IMG/VR virus record: IMGVR_UViG_3300030233_000279
Location: 1 to 40,198 of that record
Direction: 5' to 3' (one strand)
Length of the DNA: 40,198 bases
DNA from: a virus
Part shown: one piece after another, positions 13,910-33,924 of the stretch
Numbering within the stretch: position 1 is the stretch's first letter
Layout: every line of letters starts with the position of its first letter
Translations under genes and position numbers: made by a program
Notes under the pieces: model-generated
What the model was told of the DNA's origin: nothing
The model's input: only the letters and a program-made list of their open reading frames with translations
Databases searched by the model: none

Positions 13910-13980
13910 CAACGCTACCGCGTCGGTTTCCTTGTGAAACGGATCGATAGCAAACAGGCGGGTCACCGCCTCAGTAAAAG
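13910..13980 (+). repeat. late intergenic element, copy 1
   Basis: Box 1 CAACGCTACCGCGTCGG is at 13910-13926. The palindrome AGGCGG-GTCA-CCGCCT is at 13956-13971, followed by CAGTAAAAG. It is in tandem with copy 2. Confidence 0.85.
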
Positions 13981-14057
13981 CAACGCTTCCGCGTCGGCAG
14001 GGATTGCCGGCCGGATCCACACCAGGCGGGAAACCGCATCAGCAAATGGGGGCAAGG
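13981..14057 (+). repeat. late intergenic element, copy 2
   Basis: Box 1 CAACGCTTCCGCGTCGG is at 13981-13997 and AGGCGG-GAAA-CCGCAT at 14024-14039, then CAGCAAATGGGGGCAAGG directly before the start codon. GGGGG gives the ribosome site. CAAGGATG over the start equals the CsrA core. Confidence 0.85.
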
Positions 14058-14498
14058 ATGCCACGACTATCGAAGGCCAAGGCGCGGTCGATCATCATGC
14101 ACGCGCTGGCCAAGTTCTGCGTTAAGCAAGCCGATCGAAGCCAGCTCGAGGGGGGCGACAAGTTCGACGTAAACCTGGCAATCAATGGCACGATCGGAAA
14201 CCAGAAGGTAGAGGACATCTGCCGCGGTTCGCTAACCGTCGGACACGACACCACGAAGAATTCCAGTAGTGCGATCGCACCGGCCATGCTGGTCGCGTTC
14301 CTGATTAACGTGGATCCAGAACAAGCATCGAAACGAGTCGAGCAGCTGCAGAAGTTGGCTGCCAGCGGCAAGATCGATAAGAAGGTGACGGCCGAACAGG
14401 AAACACAGGCTGCCCGACTAATCAAGCTGTTCAATCAGACCGAACCCAAGACGGCGAAGGGCTCCGTTTCCTTTGCTGCAGCGAAGGCGGCCGCGTAG
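14058..14498 (+). CDS. hypothetical phage protein
   Basis: The 146-residue protein starts at ATG 14058, immediately after element copy 2; ATG 14046 is an alternative within the element. It is Lys/Ala-rich and helical, with GGDKFDVNLAINGTIGNQKVEDICRGSLTVGHD in the middle. The conserved-looking core suggests a DNA-binding or structural protein, but no family is recognised. It opens the region controlled by the late elements. Confidence 0.6.
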   Translation: MPRLSKAKARSIIMHALAKFCVKQADRSQLEGGDKFDVNLAINGTIGNQKVEDICRGSLTVGHDTTKNSSSAIAPAMLVAFLINVDPEQASKRVEQLQKLAASGKIDKKVTAEQETQAARLIKLFNQTEPKTAKGSVSFAAAKAAA

Positions 14499-14500
14499 CC

Positions 14501-15133
14501 ATGGACCGACGCCAAGCCGCCGCCGCGATCGTCGTGCTGTCCGCCTGCCTGGTGGGCGGCGATGAAGTCGCCGGCCTTGCGGTCGAGTACTTCCGCCGTA
14601 AGCCAACCGACCCGACCAGGCCGCCGGCCGACGTGCCGTTCCCCTTGCGCGTCCGGAACTATTGGGGCGGCAGTTGCTTCCACGCGTCGACCCAAGTTGC
14701 TTTGCGTTGGGCTGACCAAGGGGCGATCGCGGACAACTGGCGTCAGAAGTTCGGCGGCGGGGCATCGACCAGCGATATCGCCCGCGTGCTGGATCACTAC
14801 GGGATCCCCTACAAGCGGACGCAAATCGCCGGCTATGGTCCGAACGAAAACGGCACGGTCGAAATTCTGGACTATGCCCACAACCACCGCCTGGTTGCCG
14901 CGATCCACTACTTCCGCGGCCACGCGATCAGCTTTCTAGGCTGGTGCCAGAAAGACGGCCAGGCGATGGCCTGCCTACTCGACAACAACAAACCCCAGGA
15001 ATTCATCTTCATCGAAAAGAAAGAATTCTTGTGGAATTGGCAAAACCGTTACCACGCCGGCGCGATTGTTCCCCTGGTCAATCCGCTGCCGCCGCTACCC
15101 TACGACCCCCGCGATTTTTTGGAGAAGTCTTAA
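14501..15133 (+). CDS. secreted papain-fold (C39/CHAP-like) peptidase, endolysin candidate
   Basis: The 210-residue protein starts two bases after the previous stop. Residues 6-20 (AAAAIVVLSACLVGG) resemble a signal sequence. The catalytic set Cys59 (YWGGSCFHAST), His141 (RGHAISFLGW) and Asp161/Asn162 (LLDNN) has the order and spacing of papain-fold peptidases such as C39 and CHAP. Possible roles are peptidoglycan cleavage at lysis or processing of a peptide. No other lysis enzyme is recognisable in the window, which favours the first, but the substrate cannot be read from the sequence. Confidence 0.6.
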   Translation: MDRRQAAAAIVVLSACLVGGDEVAGLAVEYFRRKPTDPTRPPADVPFPLRVRNYWGGSCFHASTQVALRWADQGAIADNWRQKFGGGASTSDIARVLDHYGIPYKRTQIAGYGPNENGTVEILDYAHNHRLVAAIHYFRGHAISFLGWCQKDGQAMACLLDNNKPQEFIFIEKKEFLWNWQNRYHAGAIVPLVNPLPPLPYDPRDFLEKS

Positions 15134-15135
15134 CG

Positions 15136-15465
15136 ATGGCCAACACGTTCGAAAAGCGGCTCGACCAGATGGACAGCGAAACCGAGCGGAACAAGAACGC
15201 CGAGGATCGAATTCCGGCTAGTGCCAAATGGATCGACCACACGTTCGGCTTCGTGTTTATCTTTTGCTGCCTGATGTCCGGATTCACTTTCTGCGACCGG
15301 TTCGTCCCAGACTTGGCCACCTGGTGGAATTCGCCGCGGCATTGTCAGTGCGATGAATGCGAGTGGATCCGGGCCAAACATCGGCCGACGCCGCCGCCGG
15401 CCGCGATGCCAGCAATTCGCCCCAACCAACGCCCCTTGCCACCGTTCCAAATGCCGGAGATCTAA
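15136..15465 (+). CDS. single-pass membrane protein with CxCxxC
   Basis: The 109-residue protein starts at ATG 15136. A charged N-terminal helix of about 35 residues is followed by a transmembrane segment (FGFVFIFCCLMSGFTFC), a CQCDEC motif near residue 70 and a Pro-rich tail. It could be a spanin-like or membrane-associated phage protein. It lies between the papain-fold gene and another membrane-anchored gene. Confidence 0.55.
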   Translation: MANTFEKRLDQMDSETERNKNAEDRIPASAKWIDHTFGFVFIFCCLMSGFTFCDRFVPDLATWWNSPRHCQCDECEWIRAKHRPTPPPAAMPAIRPNQRPLPPFQMPEI

Positions 15466-15520
15466 CCGGCGACGACTTCAACCGTTTTGATATGGGTACC
15501 GCTTGACCATGGGGGAAATG

Positions 15521-16306
15521 ATGAACCGCAAACTGATCGCCGGCCTGATTGTCGGCCTATCGCTATTGGCCAGCGGCTTCGCTGGGTCGACACCACCGGA
15601 GCCGGAAAAGATGGAATTCGTTCAAGAGATCGAAGGGGTCGAGCTGCCGCCGCACGCGAAGTGGTACACGGTTCTGGTTACCGCCAAGGGGAAGCAGACG
15701 CCGATCGCCGGCTGGTTCGATTCCGATCCGCGGCTTGCCGAGCTGAAGCGCAAGACCGAATGGCGACACTATCAAAGCAATAGCGACGCCTTCCGGCACC
15801 AGCTGCAGCCGTCCTATGGAAATGATTTCCCGATGCTGGTGATCCAGGACGTGGACGGGGCGATGCGTGCGCAACTGACCGGCACGCTGCTAAAGCAGCT
15901 CGAGACGCCGGAGGAACTGGTCGGGGCCCTGGATCTGGCCGCGCAGACATTGCGGCCGGTCGAGATGCGGAAGGCACGCGAGAAAGTCGTGGGCGGTTGG
16001 ATCTTCAACCGACGGCCGCGGCCGCGACCATTTCCGAACAATTGCCCCGATGGCAATTGCAAACCGGATCTTCCGCCCGCGCCCAATGAGGACGACTACC
16101 AAGATCCACCGGCCGAAGAGAAAGCGAAGGACACGCCGCCGGCGAAGTCGTCGACCCCTTGGGCTGACCTGGTGATCTCTATCTTCGGCGATCGAGCCAA
16201 GCCTTGGGTGAATGGATTCAACCCAGCGGAAACGGCGATCGCCGGCGGAATAGTTGGCGCCGCGATCTGGTGGAAACGCCGGAAGAAACGCAAGGCTCGC
16301 GCCTAG
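15521..16306 (+). CDS. exported, C-terminally anchored protein, possibly thioredoxin-fold
   Basis: With start ATG 15521 (GGGGGA five bases upstream; ATG 15518 and 15509 are alternatives) the protein has 261 residues. MNRKLIAGLIVGLSLLASGFAG is a signal peptide. The globular part (WYTVLVTAKGKQTPIAGWFDSD..., DFPMLVIQDVDGAMRAQLTG) resembles a thioredoxin-type fold without the CxxC site. A Pro-rich linker follows, then a C-terminal helix (ETAIAGGIVGAAIWW) and a KRRKKRK stop-transfer end. It probably faces the periplasm. Function unknown; exclusion or lysis control is possible. Confidence 0.6.
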   Translation: MNRKLIAGLIVGLSLLASGFAGSTPPEPEKMEFVQEIEGVELPPHAKWYTVLVTAKGKQTPIAGWFDSDPRLAELKRKTEWRHYQSNSDAFRHQLQPSYGNDFPMLVIQDVDGAMRAQLTGTLLKQLETPEELVGALDLAAQTLRPVEMRKAREKVVGGWIFNRRPRPRPFPNNCPDGNCKPDLPPAPNEDDYQDPPAEEKAKDTPPAKSSTPWADLVISIFGDRAKPWVNGFNPAETAIAGGIVGAAIWWKRRKKRKARA

Positions 16307-16358
16307 TTTTCAGTTTGAAGTTTTCAGTTTTCAGTAAACCAACGAAGGGAATCGTTGC

Positions 16359-16844: not shown

Positions 16845-16863
16845 CGGACAACCGTTTGAGGAA

Positions 16864-16897: not shown

Positions 16898-16908
16898 AAG
16901 GGTACAAG

Positions 16909-16985: not shown

Positions 16986-17045
16986 CAACGCTTCCGCGTC
17001 GGCTTCTCTGGGCGACCGTCGCAATTTCAGCACGAAGGGGCATCT
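16986..17045 (+). repeat. late intergenic element, short copy
   Basis: Box 1 CAACGCTTCCGCGTCGG is at 16986-17002. A shorter spacer leads to GCGAC-C-GTCGC (17012-17022), then CAGCACGAAGGGGCATCT and the start codon of the terminase-like gene. Confidence 0.75.
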
Positions 17046-17969
17046 ATGTTTATCCATCTAGTTGCGTGGTGTTTAATTCTTCTTTCGCTGATCGTCGCGG
17101 TCGAGTTGTGCCGCTGGCTTTTCATCTGGCCACCAGATGACGAACCGGACGACGACGAATGCGAAGGAATGAAAGAGGCCTGCCGCTACGACTTCCGGAA
17201 GTTCTGCGAGTACTATCTTCCGGAAACCTTCTATAACGAATTCACGCCACGCCAAGCGCGGACAATCGCCGGCCTGCAGTCGGTGATTTTGTTCGGCCAT
17301 CATGGCGAAGCAGAAATGCACCACGGCGAAGGCACTACGTCGATGATCAAGGCCGCGGCGATCTGGGCGGCCGCGTATCGGCACCGCGACTTTATCGTGG
17401 TGTTTACCGGCCAGGCATCGGCTGCCGAAATGATGCGTCGCCAGGTCGAGGCCGAACTATGGCACAACGAGCGGCTGTGGGAAGACTTTCCGCAAATTGA
17501 CCCCTGGCCGCCGATCGCCTTTCTGTCGATCACCGAAAGCCTAAAGGGAATTATTGAAACGACAGCGGACGGCAAGCGGATCCGCCCCGATTGTGTCCTG
17601 GCCGATTCTATCGGCGGTTGGGCGCGTTCCCTTTCTGATCTCGAAAACCGTAGGCGTACCTTTCAAAGGTTCGTCGGTGCTCTCCATTTCTGCCAACCAG
17701 GTAGCAAGAAGCTGGCCGTCGCTGAACTGGTAGGAGTTGAACCGCCGCGGCCGTCGACGATCGCCAGCATGAAGGCAAGCGAGATCCGCGGCTTATTCGG
17801 CCAGCCAGGCCGACGGGTGAAAGCCGGCGAAGCGGTCGTCTACGTGGATGATCAGGAAGGCGATCCACCAGCTGCCCCGCAAGACCCCCATGTCGCCACT
17901 ACACTTCGCAACCTAAAGAAAGCCCGCGAAGCGGTCGATCGGATGCGATCGCAAAACAAGAGCGAATAG
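17046..17969 (+). CDS. membrane-anchored inactive relative of the large terminase ATPase
   Basis: The 307-residue protein begins with a membrane helix (residues 3-27, LVAWCLILLSLIVAVELCRWLFIW). Residues 44-190 align with residues 99-290 of the phage's own large terminase: EACRYDF against EACRYDL, a large hydrophobic block, WEDFPQ against VEDFPE, and RPDCVLADS against RPDLVLLDD. The Walker A site is HHGEGTTS (92-99), so the catalytic lysine is Thr97, and the Walker B acidic pair becomes ADS. The nuclease domain is missing. It should not hydrolyse ATP. It lies directly before the terminase genes and may be a membrane-bound partner or packaging regulator. Confidence 0.75.
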   Translation: MFIHLVAWCLILLSLIVAVELCRWLFIWPPDDEPDDDECEGMKEACRYDFRKFCEYYLPETFYNEFTPRQARTIAGLQSVILFGHHGEAEMHHGEGTTSMIKAAAIWAAAYRHRDFIVVFTGQASAAEMMRRQVEAELWHNERLWEDFPQIDPWPPIAFLSITESLKGIIETTADGKRIRPDCVLADSIGGWARSLSDLENRRRTFQRFVGALHFCQPGSKKLAVAELVGVEPPRPSTIASMKASEIRGLFGQPGRRVKAGEAVVYVDDQEGDPPAAPQDPHVATTLRNLKKAREAVDRMRSQNKSE

Positions 17970-17977: not shown

Positions 17978-18160
17978 GTGAAACCTTCCGACCTGACCAA
18001 ACTGTCGATGAAGAAGGCCGCGGAGCTTATGCACGTCGATCGGGCCGTGATTGTTGAGCTGGTGAAAGACGGCTGCCCACGCAACGCCAACGGCACGATC
18101 AACCTTTACAAGCTAAGCGCCTGGCTACTGCTGCGCACCAAGGGGGAAGCCGTTGGCTAG
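17978..18160 (+). CDS. small HTH protein, possible minimal terminase small subunit
   Basis: The 60-residue protein starts at GTG 17978. KKAAELMHVDRAVIVELVKDGCPRNANGTINLYKLSAWLLLR matches the winged-helix DNA-binding domain of Nu1-type small terminases and excisionases. Its position immediately before the large terminase, with an eight-base overlap, supports a packaging role. It would be much shorter than a normal small terminase, which carries an oligomerisation domain; the N-terminal extension of the next protein may supply this. Confidence 0.6.
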   Translation: MKPSDLTKLSMKKAAELMHVDRAVIVELVKDGCPRNANGTINLYKLSAWLLLRTKGEAVG

Positions 18161-20450
18161 TTTGAAAATCGACGCGGCCGAATTGTTGAAGGAGATCAAC
18201 GACGCCGGCCTGGGCAACGTGATCGACGCGCGAACACTACGCCGGCACCGCGACCAATGGGAGCTTGGCAAGTCGATCGACGTGGGAACCTATGCGGCGC
18301 ACCTGGTCGATCGCTACCAGGCGAAGCAAGCCAAGTCGACCAGCTACGAAGATAAGAAAGACAAGGCCCGCCAGCGCAGCGAGGACGCCACCCGCAAGGG
18401 CCAGGACATCGGGGCGCTGCCCGATATTGTCGATCCGGACCGCCGCGAAGCGTGCCGCTATGATCTGCGGCTATTCTTCGACACCTACATCGCCCCCGAG
18501 GATTTCTTCGCGTGGTCACCCGATCACCTGGACATCTTCGCCACGATGCAAGACGCGATTCTAAACGGCGGAAACTTCGCGCTGGCCATGCCCCGCGGAT
18601 CCGGCAAGACGACGATCACCGAAGCGGCCGCATTGTGGGCGCTGCTATTCGGCCACGTGAAATTCGTGGTGATCGTGGGCGCGACCGGAGAGAAGGCGAT
18701 CGACTTGCTGGAAACGATCAAGACTTACATGGTCGCGAAGGAAAAGCTAGTCGAGGATTTTCCGGAAGCGTGCGTCCCGATTATGAAGCTGGAAGGCCAG
18801 CCAGGCCGCTGCCGCGGCCAACGCTGCCAGGGGAAGCGAACGCAGATAGGCTGGCACGAAGATGAGCTAATCTTTCCCACGATCGAGGGCAGCGCCTGCA
18901 GCGGGTCGATCGTCCGGACGTTTGGCATCACGGCGAAGGGGATCCGCGGCCAGAAGTACACCAACGCCGAAGGGGTAACCTTCCGGCCTGACCTGGTACT
19001 GTTGGACGATCCGCAAGACGACGAATCGGCGGCTAGCCCGGGCCAGGTCAAGAAACGCGAGAAGACAATCAACGGCACGATCGGCCGGCTAGGGGGACCT
19101 GGCAAGCCGGTTACCTTGATTATGCCTTGCACGGTGATCGAGCCGGACGACTTGGCGTCGCGCTACCTGGACCGCAAACGCTACCCGCGTTGGTCCGGCA
19201 AGCTGGTACAGATGATGAAATCTTTTCCCGCCAACGAGGCGATCTGGGAGGAGTACTTCACGATTCTGCGCGAGGAACTGGCCGCCGGCAAAGGCAAGAA
19301 GCGGGCCAACGCGTTCTATAAGAAGAACCGCGCCGAAATGGACCGCGGGGCCGTTGTCTATTGGGTTCACCGCTGGGATCCTGGCGAGCTGTCCGCGATC
19401 CAACACGCGATGCATATCCGCGACGACGACCCGGAAACCTTCGCGGCCGAATATCAGAACGACCCGATCAGCGCCGGCACGGTCGACCTGGTGATCGTCA
19501 CCGCGGAAGAGATCGCGGCGAAGGTTCACAGCTACGGCCGCGACCAGCTGCCGATCGATACCGATCTGGTCGTGGGCTACGTCGACCTGCAGCTGCGGGT
19601 TCTCTATCACGCCTTGGGCGCGATGCGTTGGGATTTTACCGGCCACGTCCACACCTACGGCACCTGGCCGAAGCAACCGACCAAATATTTCATTTACAGC
19701 CCCAAGATCGCCGCGCCCATTCAGAACCACAAAACGGCCGAAGGGATCCGCCTAGGCGATCTATCGGAAGAGGCCCAAATCCGCCAGGCGCTCGAGATCC
19801 ACGTAAACCAAGATCTGATGCTACGCACCTGGAAGCGTGAAGGGGACGGCGCAGAATTCCAGATCGATCTTCTGTTGATCGATATGGGGGACTGGACGCA
19901 CATCGTGAAGCAGTTCATCGCCGAATCTCCCCACCGCGCCCGCCTGATGCCGAACAAAGGCCGCGGCGTCGGCGCGAAGAACGCCAAGATCAGCGAAACG
20001 GTTAAGAAGCCAGGTGAAGAGATCGGCGAGGAATGGATCATTCCGCGGGCCAAGGGGAAGAATCCGCTACGGCATATTATCCACGATACGAACCACTGGA
20101 AGAGCGCCGTACAAAACCGCTGGAAGTCGCCGATCGGCGAGCCTGGTTGCCTGACGCTTTACAACGCGAAGCCGCACGAGCATCGGATGATCTCAGAACA
20201 CTGCTCGGCGGAATTCGCCAACCGGATGAAGAACGAGAACAGCGGCAACACGGTCGACGAATGGAGTCTCAAACCGAACCGCGACAACCATCTTCTGGAC
20301 TGTATCAGCGGCCTGCACGTCGCCGCAAGCCGCAAGGGGTGTGCTGTGCCTTCGGCCGAACTGATGAAGGCGAAGCCGAAGAAGAAACGGGGCGGCAGCG
20401 GCAAGAAGAAGCTGAGCGAACTACGACGCGAAAAGCAGATGGGGCGCTAA
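18153..20450 (+). CDS. terL: terminase large subunit
   Basis: The 765-residue protein starts at TTG 18153 after AAGGGGGAAG. It powers packaging of phage DNA into the prohead and cuts the DNA. Residues 1-95 are an HTH-like, charged extension. The ATPase domain has Walker A PRGSGKTT (147-154, Lys152), Walker B LVLLDDPQ (281-288) and a C-motif-like IMPCT near 323. The RNaseH-fold nuclease has Asp478 (GYVDLQ), Asp577 (LLIDMG) and the late Asp in NHLLDCISG. It is longer than most large terminases because of the N-terminal extension. Confidence 0.9.
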   Translation: MASLKIDAAELLKEINDAGLGNVIDARTLRRHRDQWELGKSIDVGTYAAHLVDRYQAKQAKSTSYEDKKDKARQRSEDATRKGQDIGALPDIVDPDRREACRYDLRLFFDTYIAPEDFFAWSPDHLDIFATMQDAILNGGNFALAMPRGSGKTTITEAAALWALLFGHVKFVVIVGATGEKAIDLLETIKTYMVAKEKLVEDFPEACVPIMKLEGQPGRCRGQRCQGKRTQIGWHEDELIFPTIEGSACSGSIVRTFGITAKGIRGQKYTNAEGVTFRPDLVLLDDPQDDESAASPGQVKKREKTINGTIGRLGGPGKPVTLIMPCTVIEPDDLASRYLDRKRYPRWSGKLVQMMKSFPANEAIWEEYFTILREELAAGKGKKRANAFYKKNRAEMDRGAVVYWVHRWDPGELSAIQHAMHIRDDDPETFAAEYQNDPISAGTVDLVIVTAEEIAAKVHSYGRDQLPIDTDLVVGYVDLQLRVLYHALGAMRWDFTGHVHTYGTWPKQPTKYFIYSPKIAAPIQNHKTAEGIRLGDLSEEAQIRQALEIHVNQDLMLRTWKREGDGAEFQIDLLLIDMGDWTHIVKQFIAESPHRARLMPNKGRGVGAKNAKISETVKKPGEEIGEEWIIPRAKGKNPLRHIIHDTNHWKSAVQNRWKSPIGEPGCLTLYNAKPHEHRMISEHCSAEFANRMKNENSGNTVDEWSLKPNRDNHLLDCISGLHVAASRKGCAVPSAELMKAKPKKKRGGSGKKKLSELRREKQMGR

Positions 20451-21269: not shown

Positions 21270-21347
21270 CAACGCGTCGGCGTCGGTTCGGATAGCCGGC
21301 TGGAAAGCAATTAGGCGGGGAACCGCCTCAGCAAACTAGGGGCAGGG
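21270..21347 (+). repeat. late intergenic element before gpW-like gene
   Basis: Box 1 variant CAACGCGTCGGCGTCGG is at 21270-21286. AGGCGG-GGAA-CCGCCT is at 21313-21328, then CAGCAAACTAGGGGCAGGG and the start codon. CAGGGATG over the start matches the CsrA core CARGGAUG. Confidence 0.85.
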
Positions 21348-21559: not shown

Positions 21560-23068
21560 GTGGTACAAGCCAACAAATCGCTAAGCCCGATCCTGGGGGC
21601 CAACGGCCAGCCGATCGCCCGCGAACCTTCCGCGGCCGTGATCGAGCGGCAACGCGGCCGGATCCAAGAGCTGCGGGCGAAGTACGACGCCGCGGTTACC
21701 AACTTCCAAAATGTGAAGCATTGGACCAACGCGGACAATCTTTCCGCCGCGTCGGCGGCCAATCCTGCCGTGCGCCGGCGGCTTCGATCGCGTGCCCGTT
21801 ATGAGTGCCGCGAAAACAACAGCTTCGCCAAGGGGATGATCGACACGCTGGCCAACGACATCGTCGGCCGCGGTCCCAACCTGCAGATCCACCACACCAA
21901 CCAGGCCGCGGCAAAGCAGCTCGAGCGAAATTTCCGCCGCTGGATGAAGCGGATCGGCCTACCGGCTACGCTGCGGACCGGGGTTACCAGCGAAGTTGGC
22001 GACGGGGAGATCTTCGCAGTCGCTACCAACAACCCGAACGTCCGCAACGCGGTCCAACTGGACGTCCGGCTTCTGGAAGCCGATTACTGCAGCGACTTCG
22101 GCGGCTTCCAGTCGACCACGTTCGACGATGGGATCGAGTACGACCGCGGCGGCTACCCGGTTGCCTACAACTTTCTCGAGGATCATCCCGGCGACAACTT
22201 TGTCGGGGCAAGCCACTGGAAGACGAAACGCGTCCTGGCCGACCAGGTGATTCACTACTTCCGCCAAGATCGACCAGGCCAACGCCGCGGCGTTCCCTGG
22301 GTCGCGCCTGCGTTGCCGTTGTTCGCGTTGATGCGTCGCTACACGCTGGCCGTCACCATGTGCGCCGAAACGGCCGCGCGGCATTCGGGCGTCATGTACG
22401 CCGATGGCCACCAGGTGGTGCCCGATGAAGACGTCGACCCGATGGACACGATTGAATTCGAAATGAATTCAATGTTGACGCTGCCGATCGGCTGGAAGCT
22501 GGGGCAGCTCAAAGCGGAGCAACCGACCACCACTTACCAGATGTTCCGCGACGCGCTGCTTTGCGAGATCTCGCGTTGTCTCAATATGCCTTTCAACAAG
22601 GCCAGCGGCAATTCGAGCGGCTACAACTTCGCCAGCGGTCGGCTTGATCACCAGACTTACTTCGAGTTTGTCGACATCGAGCGGAGCAACCTGGAAACGC
22701 TTTTCCTGGACCGCGTCTTTCTGTGGTGGATCAACGAGGCGGTTTTCATCCCTGGCGAGATCCCGGCCGGAATCGGGCCGATCGATCAGCTCGATTACAC
22801 GTGGCGATGGCCGAAGCACCAGCACATCGATCCGCAAAAGCAAGCCGCGGCCGACCTGCAGCTCTGGAACGGCGGCCTTTTGACGGATGAAGAATATCAG
22901 CTCGAGAACGGCCGCGACCCGGAAGAACACTACGCCAGCTTAGAGCGGCAGTATAAGCGTCGCGCCGCAATCGGTGCGCCGCTGCCTGGCTTCCAGCAAG
23001 GGGCAGGAAACCAGGAAGCCAACCCAACCACGGACGAAGAAGAGGCGGCCACCGATGACGACGCGTAA
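21560..23068 (+). CDS. phage portal protein, lambda gpB family
   Basis: The 502-residue protein starts at GTG 21560. Family blocks are RARYECRENNSFAKGMIDTLANDIVGRGPNLQ, WMKRIGL, VTSEVGDGEIFAVATNN, VRLLEADYC, VIHYFRQDRPGQRRGVPWVAPAL, and CLNMPFNKASGNSSGYNFASGRLDHQTYFEFVDIER, all characteristic of the lambda-type portal. It forms the ring through which DNA enters. The C-terminus is acidic. It overlaps the next gene by 14 bases. Confidence 0.92.
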   Translation: MVQANKSLSPILGANGQPIAREPSAAVIERQRGRIQELRAKYDAAVTNFQNVKHWTNADNLSAASAANPAVRRRLRSRARYECRENNSFAKGMIDTLANDIVGRGPNLQIHHTNQAAAKQLERNFRRWMKRIGLPATLRTGVTSEVGDGEIFAVATNNPNVRNAVQLDVRLLEADYCSDFGGFQSTTFDDGIEYDRGGYPVAYNFLEDHPGDNFVGASHWKTKRVLADQVIHYFRQDRPGQRRGVPWVAPALPLFALMRRYTLAVTMCAETAARHSGVMYADGHQVVPDEDVDPMDTIEFEMNSMLTLPIGWKLGQLKAEQPTTTYQMFRDALLCEISRCLNMPFNKASGNSSGYNFASGRLDHQTYFEFVDIERSNLETLFLDRVFLWWINEAVFIPGEIPAGIGPIDQLDYTWRWPKHQHIDPQKQAAADLQLWNGGLLTDEEYQLENGRDPEEHYASLERQYKRRAAIGAPLPGFQQGAGNQEANPTTDEEEAATDDDA

Positions 23069-25364
23069 GCTTTCCAACCTTTTCGGCCTGTTGCCGCAAT
23101 TGAACGCCGGCGGAACCGCGGACGATAAGAACGTGTTTCGCGATCTTCCCGAAGATCCGCCGGAGGTCCTGACGCTGGAAGCGGAAGGCGACGTCGAATG
23201 GATCGAGGCCGCCGGCGAAGGGGAAGACGGCGAAGGCGAAACCGCGCCGAAGTTCGCCATGGTCGCGTACCGCGGCGGCAAGATGCGCCCGGCCGGATGG
23301 GGCGGCGACGTGGTCCTGGACCTGGCCGGCACGAAGATCGGCAAGGGGAAACGTCCCGCGCTTCTCTTCCACAACCACCGCCAACCGGTCGGCCACTTTG
23401 AAGAGAATGGGATCGTCAACGATGGGAAGACGATCAAGGCCGAAGGCGTTCTATCGGTCGAAAGCGAAGAGCAGCAACAAATCATTCAGTCGAGCCGCGC
23501 CGGCTTCCCTTGGAAGGCGTCGATCGGTGCCGCGCCCGATTGGTCGAAAGTCGAGTTCGTTGAGGCGGGCGATTCTCGCACGATCAACGGCAAATTGCAA
23601 CGCGGCCCCTTTACCTACGTGAAGGCCGCGCACGTCCACGAAGTTTCTTTTGTCACGATCGCCGGCGATGACACGTCAAGCGCGGCCGTGAATGCCACAC
23701 GATCCAGGGAGGGATCTAACGCGATGAATTTAGAACAATGGCTCGAGGCCAACGGCTGGGACATCGAAACGCTGACCGAGAAGCAGCTCAAGCCGCTGCG
23801 TGCCCAATGGAAAGCCGAATTGGAAGCGAGCGGCGACGGCGGCGAAACCGACGAAAATGACACGCCCGCGGGCAACGGCCGAGGCCTGAACGCCGGCGGC
23901 AACACCAACCAGAAACAGGAAGCCGGCGTGCCTTCGCTGGTCGAACAGCTGCGTGCGGAAGGCGCGGCCGAAGTCGAACGGCAAGGCCGGATCCGCGGCT
24001 TGTTTGCCAGCGCTCAACTTCCGGAAGATCGCCGCGGCGAATTGCACGCCCAAGCGATCCGCGAAGACTGGAACGCCGACAAGGTCGAGCTGGAGATCTT
24101 GCGAGCAAGCCGCGGCGACGTGGGCAACGGCGGCCAGGTGGCGATTCACTCGCGAAACAAGAACCTGACGGCCGGCGCGATCGAGGCGTCGATTTCCCAA
24201 TCGCTGGGCGTGCCGGAAGAGATCGCCGCCCGCGGGATCAGCGAGAAGGATATGAACGCCGCCAACGACGCGGCCAATCGCAACCTGAGCCTGCACGCCT
24301 TGATGGATATCGTCATTCTGCAGGCCCACGGCTACGGCTTCAGCGGCAACCGCAAATCCCGCGACTTCATCCGCGCGGCGGCCAGTGCCGACCGGATCCT
24401 GTGCGCCGATGGCTATACCAGCCTGAAGGCGTCCGGCAATACCACGATCAGCCTGACGGGGATCCTGGGCAACGTGGCCAACAAGTCGCTGATCACTGCC
24501 TTCGAATCGGTGGAAACGGTTTACCAGCTGCTTTGCCGATCGGCCAGCCATTCCGACTTCAAGGCGCATAGCCGTTACCGGTTGGATATCAACGGCGGCT
24601 ATCAGAAGGTCGGCCCGGATGGTCAGCTCAAGCACTCCAAAATGTCGGAAGCGGAGTACACCAACAAGCTGGAAACCTTCGGCACGATGCTGACCCTGAC
24701 CCGTCAGGACATGATCGACGACGACTTGGACGCTTTCGACCAGATCGCCAAGCAGTTGGGCATCATGGCCGGGACCGTGATGGAAGAGCAGTTCTGGATT
24801 CTCTTGCTGACCGATCCGAATTCGTTCTTCAGCGCTGGCAACGGCAACCTGACGCACGGCACTGACTACGCGCTATCGATCGACGGCCTGACCAAGGGCG
24901 AGGCCAAGTTCAGCGATCGCGTCAAGTCGGACGGTTCGCCGATTCTGATGAGTCCCAAAATCCTCTTGACCGGTAGCACGCTCAAGACCACGGCGAAGGA
25001 GCTGTACGACGAAACCAAGGTCAACGTATCGACCACGGCCAACAAGCAGCAATTCGCCAGCAATCCGCACGCGGGCAACTACACGCCGGTAGCTTCCAGC
25101 TACATGAACAACACGGCGATTCGCACGCGGGCCGGCAAGTCGATCACCGGCCAATCGTCGACCAAGTGGCTGCTTCTGGCAGATCCGAAGGTTCGGGCCG
25201 CGTTCGTCTGTGCGACTTTGAACGGCAACACCATGCCGACGATCGAGTCGGACGAGTCGGCGTTCAACACGCTGGGGATGCAGTGGCGCGGTTATCACGA
25301 CTTCGGCTTCGGCAACGAAGAACCCGAGGCCGTGATGGAATTCACCGGCGTCGCCGCGCCGTAA
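23055..25364 (+). CDS. fused prohead protease and major capsid protein
   Basis: With start ATG 23055 the protein has 769 residues. Residues 95-215 match the HK97-type prohead protease: PALLFHNHRQPVGHF carries the catalytic His and HVHEVSFVTIAGDDTSS the Ser (Ser198). A charged, low-complexity scaffold-like stretch (about 225-400) follows. The last 370 residues (GYTSLKASGNTTISLTGILGNVANKSLITAF..., KMSEAEYTNKLETFGTMLTLTRQDMIDDDL...) form the HK97-fold capsid protein. Processing by the protease is expected to release the mature capsid. No internal start with a good ribosome site was noted. Confidence 0.85.
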   Translation: MTTRKLSNLFGLLPQLNAGGTADDKNVFRDLPEDPPEVLTLEAEGDVEWIEAAGEGEDGEGETAPKFAMVAYRGGKMRPAGWGGDVVLDLAGTKIGKGKRPALLFHNHRQPVGHFEENGIVNDGKTIKAEGVLSVESEEQQQIIQSSRAGFPWKASIGAAPDWSKVEFVEAGDSRTINGKLQRGPFTYVKAAHVHEVSFVTIAGDDTSSAAVNATRSREGSNAMNLEQWLEANGWDIETLTEKQLKPLRAQWKAELEASGDGGETDENDTPAGNGRGLNAGGNTNQKQEAGVPSLVEQLRAEGAAEVERQGRIRGLFASAQLPEDRRGELHAQAIREDWNADKVELEILRASRGDVGNGGQVAIHSRNKNLTAGAIEASISQSLGVPEEIAARGISEKDMNAANDAANRNLSLHALMDIVILQAHGYGFSGNRKSRDFIRAAASADRILCADGYTSLKASGNTTISLTGILGNVANKSLITAFESVETVYQLLCRSASHSDFKAHSRYRLDINGGYQKVGPDGQLKHSKMSEAEYTNKLETFGTMLTLTRQDMIDDDLDAFDQIAKQLGIMAGTVMEEQFWILLLTDPNSFFSAGNGNLTHGTDYALSIDGLTKGEAKFSDRVKSDGSPILMSPKILLTGSTLKTTAKELYDETKVNVSTTANKQQFASNPHAGNYTPVASSYMNNTAIRTRAGKSITGQSSTKWLLLADPKVRAAFVCATLNGNTMPTIESDESAFNTLGMQWRGYHDFGFGNEEPEAVMEFTGVAAP

Positions 25365-25371: not shown

Positions 25372-25440
25372 CAACGCTACCGCGTCGGCTGACATTGCCG
25401 AGCGGACGATAAACCGAGGCCGCGGCCTGGCCGCCGCGGC
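25372..25440 (+). repeat. late intergenic element with alternative hairpin
   Basis: Box 1 CAACGCTACCGCGTCGG is at 25372-25388. At the position of the usual palindrome there is instead GCCGCGGC-CTGGCC-GCCGCGGC (25419-25440). The next gene starts 51 bases later. Confidence 0.8.
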
Positions 25441-25863: not shown

Positions 25864-25880
25864 CAGCGCGTTCGCGTCGG
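25864..25880 (+). repeat. late intergenic element, degenerate box 1
   Basis: CAGCGCGTTCGCGTCGG at 25864-25880 matches box 1 with several changes in the middle. No matching palindrome is visible before the GTG start at 25934. Confidence 0.5.
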
Positions 25881-26783: not shown

Positions 26784-26868
26784 CAACGCTACCGCGTCGG
26801 CTTCGATAGCCTAGCGATAACTAACAAATTGGCGAGGGATCGCCGCACCAAAAAAGGGAGGGAACCCG
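26784..26868 (+). repeat. late intergenic element with compensatory palindrome
   Basis: Box 1 CAACGCTACCGCGTCGG is at 26784-26800. The palindrome is GGCGA-GGGA-TCGCC (26831-26844), where the inner G-C pair of the other copies is an A-T pair on both sides. ACCAAAAAAGGGAGGG then gives the ribosome site for ATG 26869. Confidence 0.85.
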
Positions 26869-27635: not shown

Positions 27636-27672
27636 TTCCCCGCTTCCAATCATCCACCACAAGCCATAGGGA

Positions 27673-27689
27673 CCGGCGCGGTAGCGTCG
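27673..27689 (-). repeat. late intergenic element, inverted box 1
   Basis: CCGGCGCGGTAGCGTCG is the reverse complement of box 1 with two differences. It ends one base before ATG 27691 and is the only copy in the opposite orientation. Confidence 0.65.
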
Positions 27690-27690: not shown

Positions 27691-28224
27691 ATGAAAATGA
27701 ACGAAGCAGCAACCGACGCTTTGCCGTCGACGCAATTCGAGGATAGCAAGGGCCGCAAGTGGGATGCGACGGTCGACGCGCCCACGGTGAAGGAGATCCG
27801 CAACGTGTTGAAGATCGACCTGCTGGATCTGCTGGACGGCAAAACCGATTCCCTGCGGAAGCTGATCGACGATCCGATCACGCTGGTCGACGCGCTTTAC
27901 CTGGTCTGCCGCGAACAGTGCCGGGAGAAGTCGATCGACGATATCGAGTTCGGCCGCGGCCTGTACGGCGACGGGATCGACAACGCGGTCGACGCTTTCC
28001 TCGTGGGGCTGGCTTATTTTTTCCCGAAGGGCCGTCGCGCGATCGTGCTGGGCGTGATTCGGAAAATGAACGAATCACTGGACCGCGTCACGACCAAAGC
28101 GCTGGCGGCCTTGGAGGATCAGAGATTGATCGACGCGATCGATCGGGAGACGGACCAAGCGGTCGAAACGTGGCTAACCGAAGTCGAGAGCCGCGGGACT
28201 GGTGGAAAATCCTCTACCAGTTAG
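27691..28224 (+). CDS. tail assembly chaperone (G-type product)
   Basis: The 177-residue protein contains TVKEIRNVLKIDLLDLLDGKTDSLRKLIDDPITLVDALYLVCREQ and VDAFLVGLAYFFPKGRRAIVLGVI, helical as in tail chaperones of siphoviruses. Its gene position (after tube, before tape measure) is diagnostic. Near the stop, GGA AAA TCC (28204-28212) offers a -1 slip on four A residues, leading to the downstream frame. A canonical T TTT TTC slip site also lies at about 28016-28022. Confidence 0.75.
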   Translation: MKMNEAATDALPSTQFEDSKGRKWDATVDAPTVKEIRNVLKIDLLDLLDGKTDSLRKLIDDPITLVDALYLVCREQCREKSIDDIEFGRGLYGDGIDNAVDAFLVGLAYFFPKGRRAIVLGVIRKMNESLDRVTTKALAALEDQRLIDAIDRETDQAVETWLTEVESRGTGGKSSTS

Positions 28225-29049: not shown

Positions 29050-29121
29050 GAGCGCTACCGCGTCGGTTTCGATTGAGCGCGAGACGGTAGGAGAGGAAGA
29101 GGCGAAGGATCGCCACGCGTA
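29050..29121 (+). repeat. late intergenic element, first of tandem pair
   Basis: Box 1 GAGCGCTACCGCGTCGG is at 29050-29066. The palindrome GGCGA-AGGA-TCGCC (29101-29114) again carries the compensatory A-T pair, and its loop is a GGA. Confidence 0.8.
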
Positions 29122-29124: not shown

Positions 29125-29197
29125 CAACGCTGCCCCCGCGTTGTTTTGCCTGGTACACGGATGGATAGGAGGCAGGCGGGTCACCGCCTCATAAAAA
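29125..29197 (+). repeat. late intergenic element, second of tandem pair
   Basis: A degenerate box 1 (CAACGCTGCCCCCGCGTTG) is at 29125-29143. AGGCGG-GTCA-CCGCCT is at 29174-29189, followed by CATAAAAA and ATG 29198. Confidence 0.75.
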
Positions 29198-31165
29198 ATG
29201 GCAACCGGGGGAGTCAGAGCGGGCGCGGCCTTTATCGAGCTGTACGTTAAGAACGGCATGGAGAAGGGCCTGCGCAAAGCACGCGCGAAGCTGCAGGCGT
29301 TTTCGGGTAGCGTCCAAAACATGGGCCGCAACCTGACCGGCCTTGCAGCGGTTGGCGCGGCACCTCTGGCAATGGCGGCCGCGACCTATGCCAACTTTGC
29401 CGACAAGATGGCGGAGGTCCGCGCGGTAACGGGCGCGACCGAGCGGCAGTTCGGCCAGTTGGAAGGCAAGGCGCGGGAGCTGGGGGCAACTACCAGCTAT
29501 TCGGCCAGCCAAGTCGCCGAAGCGATGAAGTTTCTAGGGATGGCCGGTTTCAACCCTGACCAGATCATGGCAGGGATTCCGGCCGTGTTGAACCTGGCTC
29601 GAGCTGGTGCGACCGACCTGGCCACGGCTGCCGACATCGCGTCCGACGTCGGTTCGGCCTTCGGCCTTACGGCGGAAGATCTGGGACACGTCGCCGACGT
29701 GATGGCCGTAACGGCTTCGAGCGCCAACACCTCTATCGAAATGATGGGGGAAACCTTGAAGTATGCCGCGCCGTTGGCGAAGGCGGCCGGCCAGTCGATC
29801 GAGGACACGGCCGCGGCGATCGGCGTGCTGGGCAACAACGGTATCAAGGCGTCCATGGCCGGTACCGACATGGCTGAAATTATGAAGTCAATCGGCAGCA
29901 AGTCGGTCAAAGGGATCGAGGCGATCGGCGTTAAGACCAGCGACGCGGAAGGCAACGTTCGCAACCTGTTGGACGTGATGAAGGATATCGGAGCGGCTAC
30001 CGCGGGAATGGGCCAATCCGATCGCCTGGCGTTCTTCGAGGCCAACTTCGGCCGCGCTGCCAAGTCGGCCTTGATCCTGTCCGATTCCGGTACTTCATTG
30101 GATCAGCTACGCGACAAGATCGGGGACGCCGACGGGGCCGCGGCGAAGATGGCCGAAACGATGGACGACAACCTGGGGGGCGCGTTCCGCCGGTTTATGT
30201 CCGCGTTCGAAGGCGTGCAAATCTCCATCGGCAAGGCCTTGGAAGGGCCATTAAAAGGTATCGTTGATTGGGGCGGCCAGGCCTTGGCGTCGATCGGTCA
30301 ATTTATCGAAGCCAACCCGTTACTCGTGGCATCGTTTGCGGCGATCATCGCGATCGCAGGCGCGGCCGGCGTCGGCTTGCTGGGCTTGGCGGTCGTTATG
30401 AATATCGTGGCCGGAGCGATCACCGGAATTATCACCATGCTGGGTGCGCTTGCTACGGTGATCACCTTCCTGGCTTCCCCCTTGGGCCTGGCGATCGTGC
30501 TGATCGGTGCGCTGGTCGCGGTGATTGGCGGATGGATCGCGGCGATCGGTTACGCGACCGGGTTTTGGAGCTGGGCAGCTGCCAAGATCGGCGAAGCCTT
30601 TCGCTACTTGTGGGACACGCTAGGACCGATCTTCCAAGGCCTGCAATCTGCCATGATGTCGGGGAAGTGGAAGCTTGCCGCCCAAATCTTGTGGGCCGGT
30701 ATCAAGATTGCCTTTGCCGAGTCGATGGCCTTCCTGTTGCGATCGGTCGAAACGTGGGCCAGCCAGGTTAGCGAAGTGATTGGCCAACTGGTCGATAGCT
30801 ATGCGCTCAATTTCAAGCTGGATTCCAAGTTCGCGCAGCTGGAATTGAAACGGCTTCTCAAGGAAGCCGCGGACCTGGAAAAGCAAAAGCAACAAGAGGA
30901 AGCCAGCGACGACGATTCCGTTTTGCCTGGGCAAACTTCGCCGGACTTCGACATTCCGAAAGTGCCGGATCTAGAAGATATCGGCGGGCAGGTCGCGAAG
31001 GCCTGGGAGCTGGCCGTCGGTACCTCTAACAGCTTCGCGGTCGATCGGATCGGCACGCAGGCCGCACCGCTGGAACGCGTCGAAAACCAGCTGCAGGAAG
31101 CCAACACCAAACTAAGCACGTTAGTCGAACAAGGCGAAGACGCCGGCGATGAATTCGGGGAATAA
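29198..31165 (+). CDS. tail tape measure protein
   Basis: The 655-residue protein starts at ATG 29198. Residues 70-300 carry the TP901 tape-measure core (ARELGATTSYSASQVAEAMKFLGMAGF..., AADIASDVGSAFGL, MMGETLKYAAPLAKAAGQSIEDTAAAIGVLGNNGIKASMAG). Residues 370-460 are strongly hydrophobic (several potential membrane helices), as in proteins that enter the host envelope during DNA entry. The C-terminal quarter is a charged helix with a Gln-rich segment. It sets tail length; by size the tail would be of about 100 nm. Confidence 0.9.
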   Translation: MATGGVRAGAAFIELYVKNGMEKGLRKARAKLQAFSGSVQNMGRNLTGLAAVGAAPLAMAAATYANFADKMAEVRAVTGATERQFGQLEGKARELGATTSYSASQVAEAMKFLGMAGFNPDQIMAGIPAVLNLARAGATDLATAADIASDVGSAFGLTAEDLGHVADVMAVTASSANTSIEMMGETLKYAAPLAKAAGQSIEDTAAAIGVLGNNGIKASMAGTDMAEIMKSIGSKSVKGIEAIGVKTSDAEGNVRNLLDVMKDIGAATAGMGQSDRLAFFEANFGRAAKSALILSDSGTSLDQLRDKIGDADGAAAKMAETMDDNLGGAFRRFMSAFEGVQISIGKALEGPLKGIVDWGGQALASIGQFIEANPLLVASFAAIIAIAGAAGVGLLGLAVVMNIVAGAITGIITMLGALATVITFLASPLGLAIVLIGALVAVIGGWIAAIGYATGFWSWAAAKIGEAFRYLWDTLGPIFQGLQSAMMSGKWKLAAQILWAGIKIAFAESMAFLLRSVETWASQVSEVIGQLVDSYALNFKLDSKFAQLELKRLLKEAADLEKQKQQEEASDDDSVLPGQTSPDFDIPKVPDLEDIGGQVAKAWELAVGTSNSFAVDRIGTQAAPLERVENQLQEANTKLSTLVEQGEDAGDEFGE

Positions 31166-31170
31166 GCAGG

Positions 31171-32019
31171 ATGCCAGAAGTTTACGAAATTGTGAATTCG
31201 CAAAGCGGGAAGGATGGAACCGGCCGCAACACGAAGCGGAAGCTGCTGTACCACGTTTTGGGAACCGATTCGGATACCGATATCGTGACGGCCGTTTTGG
31301 CGGAAGCGCCGGGCATCTTCACGGCCAACGGTATCAACCTAAAGCTGGACGATATCAGCAAGACTCAGATCGGCCCGGAATTCTGGGCGGCCGAAGTCAA
31401 CTACATCGATCCCGAGAAGCAGGAAGACAAAAAGAAGCGGGACGAAAACACGCTGGTCGCCAGTTGGGACACCACCGGCGGAACGCAGCACATTACGACC
31501 AGCTTGGAAACCCGCGGATCGGGCCAGCGATCGTTAAGCATCGACCCGGCCGAAAACTTCGGCCGAGCGATTGAAGTCACCGAGAGCGGGGTCAACGGGA
31601 CCGACGTCGTCGTTCCGATGCTTCGGCTTGAGTTGGAATATAAGTTCCCCAACGCTTCCGTTACCGACGCCTATATCCGCAAGCTGCGCGACCTGACCGG
31701 CACGACCAATAGCGCGGAGTTCAAGGGCTGGGCGATTGGCGACTTGTTACTCCTGGGTTCGAGCGGACGCCAGTCAAGCCAGGGCGGAATCACGGCCCGT
31801 TTCATTTTCGCGGCCGGCAAATCAATTTCCGGATCGTTCGGTGGGTTCGTCGACGACGAAGGCAACACGCTCGACCTGACCAAACGCGCCCACGATCACC
31901 TCTGGTACTACTTCGCCAGGGAAGAAGGAGACGAGAACGTCGTACAGCGGCCGAAGTGGCTGTACATCGAGCGCGTTTATGAAGAGACGGATTTTGCCGA
32001 GATCGGAATCGGCAGCTAA
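31171..32019 (+). CDS. hypothetical tail protein
   Basis: The 282-residue protein starts at ATG 31171 after AAGCAGG. It is beta-rich (LLYHVLGTDSDTDIVTAVLAEAPGIF, ARFIFAAGKSISGSFGGFV) and ends with an acidic IERVYEETDFAEIGIG. Its position directly behind the tape measure is that of distal-tail proteins. No family is recognised. Confidence 0.6.
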   Translation: MPEVYEIVNSQSGKDGTGRNTKRKLLYHVLGTDSDTDIVTAVLAEAPGIFTANGINLKLDDISKTQIGPEFWAAEVNYIDPEKQEDKKKRDENTLVASWDTTGGTQHITTSLETRGSGQRSLSIDPAENFGRAIEVTESGVNGTDVVVPMLRLELEYKFPNASVTDAYIRKLRDLTGTTNSAEFKGWAIGDLLLLGSSGRQSSQGGITARFIFAAGKSISGSFGGFVDDEGNTLDLTKRAHDHLWYYFAREEGDENVVQRPKWLYIERVYEETDFAEIGIGS

Positions 32020-32067
32020 CCAACAATCAGCAAGGGGAGCGGCGCGGGATGCGTTGCGATATATGCC

Positions 32068-32745
32068 ATGGATCGGCCCAACCTTTTGATACATACCGCG
32101 ATCAGCGGATTTACTCAGAATGTCGGCAAGTGGAACGGGATCTTGGACCTGACCGAAAAGCTGCGCGAGCAGCATTGCGACGGCGTCCGGAGCCGCGTCC
32201 ATTACTACCCTTGGCACGCCAACTTCGCGCACGTGGCCGAGTACTACTTCGCCTTGGGTGAGAAGTACGGCGTTCGGCCGATCTTGGGGATCTACGCTTA
32301 CAGCTGGGGAGCTGGCCGCGGGGCGATGACGCTGGCCAGGCAACTCAAGCGGCGGGGGATGATGGTCCGCGTTATGGTTCTATCGGATCCGGTTTATCAT
32401 CACCCCTTCGCCCCCTGGCGTGCCTTGCGGGCCTGGTGCCTGCCGCTGATCGGGGAGCAAGTGATTCGCGTCCCTGAGAACGTGAAGGAGGTCTATAGCT
32501 TCCACCAGCACCAGAACCGACCAGGCGGGCACAAGCTGATCAGCGGCGGCCAGGCCGGCGGCGCGTTCATCCATCCGCGGCAGCTGCTGCGCTATGATCA
32601 CCAGTACATGGACAACGCGCCGGAGTTCCACGAGTTGGCCTTGGCAGAAGCGGGCAAGTTATGCAAGTTCGCCGGCGGCCGACGGCCGGAAGCCAATCGG
32701 CAATTAAAAGTGATTCGTGAATCACATGGGAGCGAAGCGACATGA
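32068..32745 (+). CDS. alpha/beta-hydrolase-like tail-region protein
   Basis: The 225-residue protein starts at ATG 32068. YGVRPILGIYAYSWGAGRGAMTLARQLKRRG has the nucleophile elbow pattern of serine hydrolases (Ser79, in AYSWGAG), followed by VRVMVLSDPVYHH with Asp107 and a His-rich stretch (FHQHQNRPGGH) that could give the third residue. ATG 32068 has a weak ribosome site, while GGGGAG precedes an out-of-frame ATG at 32049. An esterase in the tail could cut surface polysaccharide or lipid; this is inference. Confidence 0.6.
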   Translation: MDRPNLLIHTAISGFTQNVGKWNGILDLTEKLREQHCDGVRSRVHYYPWHANFAHVAEYYFALGEKYGVRPILGIYAYSWGAGRGAMTLARQLKRRGMMVRVMVLSDPVYHHPFAPWRALRAWCLPLIGEQVIRVPENVKEVYSFHQHQNRPGGHKLISGGQAGGAFIHPRQLLRYDHQYMDNAPEFHELALAEAGKLCKFAGGRRPEANRQLKVIRESHGSEAT

Positions 32746-33833
32746 GACAAAAACGAGTGAGCGGCGGGCAGAAGATCAGCGGCAACCTATCGGCCGCGGC
32801 GATCAGCCAGTTGCCGCGGTTGATCGAGAACGACCAGATGCGAGAACTGAACAAGCCAGGCGGCCCGATCCCGACGGTCGACGGTCCTGGCTTGTTTGTT
32901 CATGCGAAGGCGACCAGCGAGCTGGCGACGGGGGAATGGACCTATTTAAATCGGCCGCTATTCCCTTCGATTGTCAGTAGTACCGACGTGAAAGAAAGTA
33001 CCTGGTTCAATCAATCCGAACTACTGGAAGCGGCCACGCCGGACGCCTTGGGCCTGCAGGGCGGCGGGCAATACGTCAAGCAACTGCTTCCGGCCATGGC
33101 GATCGAGCCGCGGCGAGCTGGCGAGCTGACCCGGTATCAGATCGGCGGCCTGGCACGGACGCGGATCCAGTTTCCCGAGGGGGCCTTGGCGACCAGCAAT
33201 CTCTACCGCACGGCCTACATCGGTACCAATTCGATCCCGATGGCCACCGACACCGACGCCGGCGAGCTGGATATCATCTGGCACAAAGAGATTGACAGCG
33301 AGAACCGAATTCACGCGGCGATTGTTCGCTTCCCTACCGGCCCCCGGCCGCCGCGGTTGTCGCAATGGACCGCGCGAGTTCCCGGCGTGACATACAACGG
33401 CGGAACTGCCGCGCCAGATTTCTGGTCGAAGGACGTAGGCGGCGGCTTGAATACCTACCTAGGCGTGGAAACGTCGGCGGGGAATCTGAAGATTTTACGC
33501 GGGGGGGAATACCACGTTTCCATAGGCCTCTATTTGGCGTCCTACAGTTGGACAAACCGCGCTTCGCGATCGGGTAGGGTCACCGCGCAGCTAACCGGCG
33601 GGATCTGGGCAGGGGTCGGCAAGGTGGTTGCCAATGCCAAGGCCGTCGACGCGTCCGGCGACCCATTGACCGATGAGATCATCGGCACGGCGACGCGGGT
33701 TATCAACGTGGATGCCGGCGACACAATCAGCGTACAAGTTACGGCCGACATCGGAGCGGCAGAGGTTAAAGTTCAGACCACAATCGAGGGTCCTTATAAC
33801 AACCACTACCCCGAGGGTTCGGCCTACTACTAG
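32742..33833 (+). CDS. tail tip / fibre protein with jelly-roll-like end
   Basis: The 363-residue protein overlaps the previous gene by ATGA. The N-terminal part (KISGNLSAAAISQLPRLI, TSELATGEWTYLNRPLFP) resembles attachment domains. The last 120 residues (ILRGGEYHVSIGLYLASYSWTNRASRSGRVTAQL..., VINVDAGDTISVQVTADIG) have the C1q/TNF-like jelly-roll pattern found in many tail proteins. It probably belongs to the adsorption apparatus. Confidence 0.6.
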   Translation: MRQKRVSGGQKISGNLSAAAISQLPRLIENDQMRELNKPGGPIPTVDGPGLFVHAKATSELATGEWTYLNRPLFPSIVSSTDVKESTWFNQSELLEAATPDALGLQGGGQYVKQLLPAMAIEPRRAGELTRYQIGGLARTRIQFPEGALATSNLYRTAYIGTNSIPMATDTDAGELDIIWHKEIDSENRIHAAIVRFPTGPRPPRLSQWTARVPGVTYNGGTAAPDFWSKDVGGGLNTYLGVETSAGNLKILRGGEYHVSIGLYLASYSWTNRASRSGRVTAQLTGGIWAGVGKVVANAKAVDASGDPLTDEIIGTATRVINVDAGDTISVQVTADIGAAEVKVQTTIEGPYNNHYPEGSAYY

Positions 33834-33835
33834 TG

Positions 33836-33924
33836 CAACGCTACCGCGTCGATTGAACTGGAAAACGTAACAACCTATTAGGCGGGTTACCGCCTCACCA
33901 AAAAACGCCAGGGAGGGCGTCACC
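33836..33924 (+). repeat. late intergenic element before tail genes
   Basis: Box 1 CAACGCTACCGCGTCGA is at 33836-33852. AGGCGG-GTTA-CCGCCT is at 33880-33895, then CACCAAAAAACG and AGGGAGGG before ATG 33925. TTGAAC (33853-33858) and TATTAG (33876-33881), 17 bases apart, form a promoter-like pair inside the element. Confidence 0.85.

Follow-up and report, generated by a model that had tools for sequence, protein, structure and literature searches.

The late module and two related phages

The window analysed here is the 40,198-nt IMG/VR virus record IMGVR_UViG_3300030233_000279 (positions 1 to 40,198), whose late module includes the terminase (18153-20450), portal (21560-23068), protease-capsid (22974-25364) and tape measure (29198-31165) genes. 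Nearly confined to this module is a family of small intergenic cassettes built on two hairpins, which is the subject of this report. Matches to Rfam in the window were limited to tRNA. The sole hint to the host is an SHD1-domain protein encoded at 876-2015, which suggests a planctomycete, as this domain is common in planctomycetes.

Two close relatives were found by a search of IMG/VR with the portal protein, namely G001 (IMG/VR 3300029624_000058), with a portal protein 89% identical to that of the window, and G002 (L082, IMG/VR 2837289379_000001), where the identity is 80%. Searches with the terminase and the tape measure protein gave no additional close relative, and no relative was found in the portal search of genomes.

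A cassette of two hairpins

The first box of the cassette (box 1, CAACGCTACCGCGTCGG) was found 11 times in the window when up to three mismatches were allowed, compared to a mean of 0.27 and a largest count of 2 in 100 dinucleotide shuffles. The second palindrome, GGCRR-N4-YYGCC, is present 11 times where 2.3 occurrences are expected. Both are far above chance, and the two-box element family described in a first-pass annotation of the sequence is therefore real. That annotation had overlooked that box 1 forms a hairpin by itself, with a 6-bp stem and a 4-base loop (hairpin 1). In the cassette, which spans about 72 bases, hairpin 1 is separated by a variable spacer from hairpin 2, which is followed by a CANNAAAA tail; the hairpin ends are conserved at 0.87 and 0.80, the spacer at just 0.42.

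Forward copies mostly read CAACGC-TWCC-GCGTCG, which leaves an A-C mismatch in the mRNA sense that becomes a G-U pair when the other strand is read. Coordinates refer to the plus strand unless stated otherwise. A tandem pair is located at 13910-13925, with the A-C mismatch in the mRNA sense, and at 13981-13996, and each unit has its own hairpin 2 (AGGCGG-GTCA-CCGCCT at 13956-13971 and GCGG-GAAA-CCGC at 14024-14039). Hairpin 2 also accompanies the forward copies at 21270-21285 (AGGCGG-GGAA-CCGCCT, 21313-21328), 26784-26799 (the compensatory A-T variant GGCGA-GGGA-TCGCC, 26831-26844), 29050-29065 (hairpin 1 GAGCGC-TACC-GCGTCG, followed by the hairpin 2 variant GGCGA-AGGA-TCGCC at 29101-29114) and 33836-33851 (AGGCGG-GTTA-CCGCCT, 33880-33895, after which a normal Shine-Dalgarno sequence serves the ATG at 33925). 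It is missing at 16986-17001, at 25372-25387 and at the degenerate copy 25864-25879.

All strong sites listed in the first-pass annotation (13910, 13981, 16986, 21270, 25372, 26784, 29050, 33836 and, inverted, 27673) are present, and the double change from G-C to A-T at 26831 and 29101 had been read correctly. The weak site 25864 is genuine as well, since its orthologue in a relative, at G001 11766, is a better copy. The other weak site (29125-29143, CAACGC-TGCCCCC-GCGTTG) is a true hairpin conserved in G001, but with its 7-base loop it is not a standard box. A downstream palindrome had been ascribed to six full copies, and it does follow about 43-50 bases after the box at 13910, 13981, 21270, 26784, 29050, 29125 and 33836, but there is none at 16986, 25372 and 25864.

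Only one other candidate, at 2466, had been named. This isolated forward hairpin-1-like copy exists (2466-2481), but its inverted partner at 2577-2592 on the minus strand, which has no adjoining Shine-Dalgarno sequence, had been overlooked. The hairpin-1 copies of this pair (2466-2592), inverted relative to each other and about 95 bases apart, lie close to tRNA-Asp (410-484) and the SHD1 protein where the phage-like region has its left edge, and the pair resembles a miniature inverted-repeat unit.

Reversed copies between Shine-Dalgarno sequence and start codon

When the cassette is reversed, hairpin 1 usually lies at a translation start. Start codons were placed via alignment of orthologous genes, and a purine-rich Shine-Dalgarno sequence was found to abut the 5' side of 12/12 reversed copies with a gap of 0-2 bases, the start codon following 6-12 bases 3' of the hairpin in most of them. 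In the window, the reversed hairpin 1 at 27674-27689 (CGGCGC-GGTA-GCGTCG in the mRNA sense) separates the Shine-Dalgarno sequence AGGGA (27668-27672) from the ATG at 27697, 24 bases away, with no closer core. A degenerate reversed copy at 32040-32056 (CGGCGC-GGGAT-GCGTTG), which the first-pass annotation did not list, lies between the Shine-Dalgarno sequence at 32032-32039 and the ATG at 32068. At the tape measure gene it is hairpin 2 (AGGCGG-GTCA-CCGCCT, 29174-29189) that is placed between the Shine-Dalgarno sequence AGGAGG (29167-29172), 25 bases 5' of the start, and the ATG at 29198. The position between Shine-Dalgarno sequence and ATG had been overlooked for all three hairpins.

A hairpin is carried by 13 of the 44 late starts in the three phages. 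In 13/13 of these a Shine-Dalgarno core lies at 19-30 bases and in 11/13 there is none at 3-13 bases, whereas among the 31 other late starts a near core is found in 26 and missing in 5 (Fisher p = 3e-5, to be read as a guide for the reasons given in the Discussion). A sequence-blind scan for a Shine-Dalgarno sequence, a hairpin of at least 6 bp and a start recovered 12 of the 13 hairpin starts and 0 of 30 others; over the three genomes the same scan picked 14 of 1018 ATGs. Up to seven late starts per genome are served in this way by one repeated hairpin family. Downstream of the forward copies an ordinary Shine-Dalgarno sequence is found in most cases.

This layout suggests how the reversed copies may act. 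Folding of hairpin 1, directly 3' of the Shine-Dalgarno sequence and usually 6-12 bases 5' of the start codon, would turn a non-working spacing of 19-30 bases into a working one and thereby create a split ribosome-binding site. The first-pass annotation had considered a structured RNA, which seems right for the reversed copies, but in a different role, since the hairpin lies between Shine-Dalgarno sequence and AUG and keeps them apart.

In G002 (5561-5610), 8 bases downstream of a reversed hairpin with its Shine-Dalgarno sequence, the next cassette contains ATG CTT CCG CAC GTG CTT TGT TAG, a frame of 7 codons that possibly encodes a leader peptide or is due to chance. A second cassette type is present in the same phage at 5582-5643 and 9911-9973 (87% over 63 bases), with a hairpin ACATGC-TTCC-GCACGT, a spacer, a Shine-Dalgarno sequence and a hairpin GAACGC-GGAA-GCGTTC. 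Since their loops have complementary sequences, these two hairpins could base-pair with each other or form a switch.

Pairing and covariation of the stems

In the mRNA sense 12/12 reversed hairpins are fully paired, with the stems CGGCGC/GCGTCG, CGACGC/GCGTCG, CGACGC/GCGTTG, GAACGC/GCGTTC and GGACGC/GCGTTT. For the eight distinct sequences of reversed hairpin 1, 100% of the cells are paired, compared to 22-56% in slid controls. The outer pair varies on both sides (C-G, G-C, G-U), and covariation reaches 0.399 vs 0.213 after shuffling. Hairpin 2 shows five changes on both sides, including GGCGG/CCGCC to GGCGA/TCGCC, and a covariation of 0.179 vs 0.091. The check for covariation in added copies, which had been proposed together with the element, thus came out positive for both palindromes. 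In predicted local folds the stem probability is 0.86-1.00 at 8 of 12 hairpin starts, and 0.98 for hairpin 2 at the tape measure start of the window. For forward copies in the mRNA sense, the hairpin 1 stem stays at or below 0.61 in 9 of 10, and hairpin 2, where present, is predicted to fold in most. The covariation together with the spacing data supports a model in which the ribosome may bridge the gap via the folded hairpin.

The palindromes could also be read as DNA. A dyad site for a phage protein, such as a repressor, a late activator or a nucleoid or partition protein, might have spread through the late module in a stoperator-like manner; a near-palindrome works either way round, and the box is conserved at 0.87 in forward as well as reversed copies, against 0.42 in the spacer, with the letters of the forward copies kept, A-C mismatch included. 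However, the two halves change in concert (CGACGC/GCGTCG to GAACGC/GCGTTC; GGCGG to GGCGA in hairpin 2) and the loop length varies, which is better explained by base pairing. A protein site would leave the exact abutment to the Shine-Dalgarno sequence and the spacing unexplained, and the orthologous 25864 copies have 2 differences in 17 bases next to 36 identical bases. The stoperators of cluster A mycobacteriophages (named in PMC3203893) are likewise short repeats scattered between phage genes, but they are 13-bp repressor sites for transcription control, whereas covarying hairpins tied to translation starts are found here. We consider a protein-binding site unlikely.

Exchange, turnover and inversion among the three phages

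The tape measure start shows an exchange of hairpins between orthologous genes. The window has AGGAGG-C-(AGGCGG GTCA CCGCCT)-8 bases-ATG, thus hairpin 2; in G001 the A-T variant of hairpin 2 with another loop (AGGCGA-AGGA-TCGCCT) lies between Shine-Dalgarno sequence and ATG, and in G002 this place is taken by hairpin 1 (GAACGC-GGAA-GCGTTC). Hairpin 2 would thus play the same bridging part in the tape measure gene of two phages. At the window starts 25934, 26869, 31171 and 33925 the spacing is normal in the window and in G001, while G002 has a hairpin and a far Shine-Dalgarno sequence. Of the comparative evidence, this swapping points most strongly to the fold, and not the letters, being maintained.

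Copies also differ in presence and orientation. The same intergenic site can be occupied in forward orientation in one phage and in reverse in another, and be empty in a third. The copy at 16986 is common to G001, the site of 21270 is empty there, and 25372 is forward in G002 and absent in G001. The 26784 element, about 72 bases long, is cleanly and entirely missing in G001, where it would lie after the stop codon and before the following Shine-Dalgarno sequence. Inverted matches were detected at non-orthologous sites over 71-96 bases with E values down to 2.5e-11: the tandem pair (window 13902-13996) matches a tandem pair of inverted copies at G002 10956-10865 with 76% over 96 bases, and window 21260-21330 matches G002 4661-4591 with 77% over 71 bases, in both cases with different genes downstream. 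Inside G002, 6140-6211 matches 10950-10879 inverted over 72 bases (E = 3e-10). The majority of the G002 copies are on the strand opposite to the sense of the structural genes, and the window (27673) and G001 also have some copies that are reversed relative to these genes.

The cassette probably moved as one piece, whether enzymatically or through recombination. The forward copies would be the same cassette flipped, with the sequence of hairpin 1 kept and full pairing in the mRNA lost; they are most likely spacers, mRNA-stabilising hairpins (hairpin 2) or passengers.

In the first-pass annotation the element was proposed to be a phage-specific late promoter, operator or structured leader. Its intergenic position in the late module fits a promoter or structured 5' leader acting in one direction, as does the fact that all forward copies in the window aim at the downstream gene. 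Yet the relatives carry the element reversed, or lack it cleanly as at the empty G001 sites, before the same genes, so that orientation toward the gene is not fixed but varies at orthologous sites. Sigma-70-like promoters in the region are below chance (1 vs 4.9 expected), the three records yielded no gene with sigma-70 region 2, and none of the unassigned open reading frames (ORFs) is long enough for a T7-type single-subunit RNA polymerase; the RNA_pol search ran without a positive control. A one-way late promoter or leader is therefore very improbable. The T7-like late promoter was rejected on the lack of a polymerase-sized ORF and the varying orientation, and an integron attC site was dropped, as inspection by eye did not reveal a GTTRRRY/RYYYAAC pair.

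Searches beyond the three phages

No copies beyond the three phages were found in the searches made. Composite DNA patterns run against viral contigs gave true matches only in G002; the rest were single and mostly coding by inspection. Among 84,980 species genomes the composite pattern had 33 scattered single matches in other phyla and 0 in planctomycetes, which were taken as chance, and a DNA similarity search of phage records gave chance matches only. Three further contigs found via the capsid protein (L084-L086, 40-50% identity) hold zero copies of box 1. The element had been called phage-specific, and in everything searched the family is indeed restricted to phages.

These searches bear on the idea that the cassette is a selfish miniature palindromic repeat of the REP, REPIN or MITE type, mobilised by a host transposase and functionless, whose Shine-Dalgarno layout was tolerated or co-opted by chance. 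REPINs were reportedly described by Bertels and Rainey in 2011 (as cited in PMC3733652). The presence and absence site by site, both orientations, the tandem copies and the conserved ends around a variable middle would all be expected of such a repeat, and like REP, REPIN and MITE elements (PMC3733652) the cassettes are short paired intergenic hairpins that differ between relatives. However, they lack the REP tag (an unpaired GTAG or CGTC at one end), being flanked instead by AGGAG or TG, GYT and CANNAAAA, and the Shine-Dalgarno sequence lies within the spacer. They reside in a phage and not in a chromosome, no Y1 family transposase (RAYT) was found in the three records, where controls were detected, and a planctomycete match is missing among the species genomes. 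In contrast to a MITE, the cassette ends are two unrelated hairpins and not terminal inverted repeats. A functionless repeat also does not account for the near Shine-Dalgarno core missing at 11 of the 13 hairpin starts, nor for the tape measure hairpin being exchanged while the layout stays. We regard this explanation as quite unlikely.

Other features of the window and of G002

A direct repeat of 133 bases, 86% identical, flanks the late module (window 12935-13067 and 38814-38946). Its core of about 50 bases, CCCCGACGGGAACAGTCGAAAAAAGGGAGTTTGTTTCTTTCTGTGTCCG, is present once in G002 (19899-19959), after the late module, and a role of the repeat in attachment, packaging or control is possible. 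Immediately upstream of the large terminase (18153-20450), a protein of 307 amino acids (17046-17969) resembles the ATPase N-terminal part of that enzyme (34% over 109 amino acids) without the Walker A lysine, and looks like a decayed or repurposed partial terminase duplicate. Internal repeats of about 110-270 bases were seen at window 36829-38129 within an ORF of 592 amino acids (36661-38439), likely a repetitive receptor-binding or fibre protein.

Discussion

The explanation we favour, with a probability of roughly 0.6, is that the late module of a small phage clade harbours a short intergenic cassette with two hairpins, copies of which have been relocated, duplicated and flipped, and that its reversed copies are split ribosome-binding sites. 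Several points weigh against it. Because the copies are related, tests that assume independence overstate significance, and the class of hairpin starts was defined after inspection, which makes the counts guides rather than independent tests. A purine run lies nearer to the ATG at two hairpin starts (the G001 tape measure gene and G002 5651), the reversed copies 5561 and 10865 of G002 precede another cassette and not directly a main gene, and in 4 of the 12 starts another pairing is preferred over the hairpin (stem probability 0.02-0.37). The upkeep of the box in forward copies is explained only by a need of mobility or by recent spread. With regard to mobility, the missing RAYT counts here as well, no target duplication was seen at the empty G001 site of 26784, and recombination could also have moved the copies. 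The sample consists of three phages, and the completeness of any record is unproven.

A more far-reaching version is conceivable, which we put forward only tentatively and hold to be doubtful: the cassette might be a portable, invertible ribosome-binding site, a mobile unit with its own Shine-Dalgarno sequence and bridging hairpin that rewires late-gene initiation with each move or flip, the opposite orientation being off or neutral.

Split, or accommodated, ribosome-binding sites of phage T4 genes 38 and 25 were reportedly described by Nivinskas in 1999 and by Malys and Nivinskas in 2009. The spacing has been shown experimentally to shrink through a hairpin from 22 to 5 bases for gene 38 and from 27 to 11 for gene 25 (PMC3014915), and this is a precedent for the layout, for which the first-pass annotation knew of no described family. 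As in T4, the hairpin lies between the Shine-Dalgarno sequence and the AUG and is restricted to a clade, the linear spacing is similar (22-27 in T4, 19-30 here), and so is the collapsed one (5-11 and about 6-13, respectively). At 11 of the 13 hairpin starts the sole Shine-Dalgarno core is too distant, and the hairpin fills the gap and would restore a working spacing. In contrast to the single, gene-specific hairpins of T4, a repeated family is found here, known from sequence, whose members are exchanged between orthologous starts and also inverted away from starts.

The SAS and ESAS of cluster K (PMC3203893, PMC11373665) are comparable in being a dispersed phage-specific repeat by translation starts, absent from the host, with an upstream inverted-repeat part. 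However, SAS is an asymmetric 13-mer (GGGATAGGAGCCC) of non-structural genes that lies 3-7 bp away from the start and almost always points the same way, and the inverted repeats of ESAS show no covariation and contain a SigA-like promoter (PMC3203893, PMC11373665). The cassettes described here have another sequence, both orientations and covarying stems, belong to structural genes and have no promoter that was seen. They may thus be filed as T4-like split ribosome-binding sites, and a repeated, exchangeable and invertible family would be the new aspect.

Split ribosome-binding sites have so far been isolated cases, whereas one repeated family is present here, with hairpins exchanged between orthologous genes. 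Such a clade provides a natural experiment on whether spacing is measured by the ribosome across a folded hairpin, whatever the sequence of that hairpin. The turnover of the cassettes shows the shuffling of short leader parts in phage genomes.

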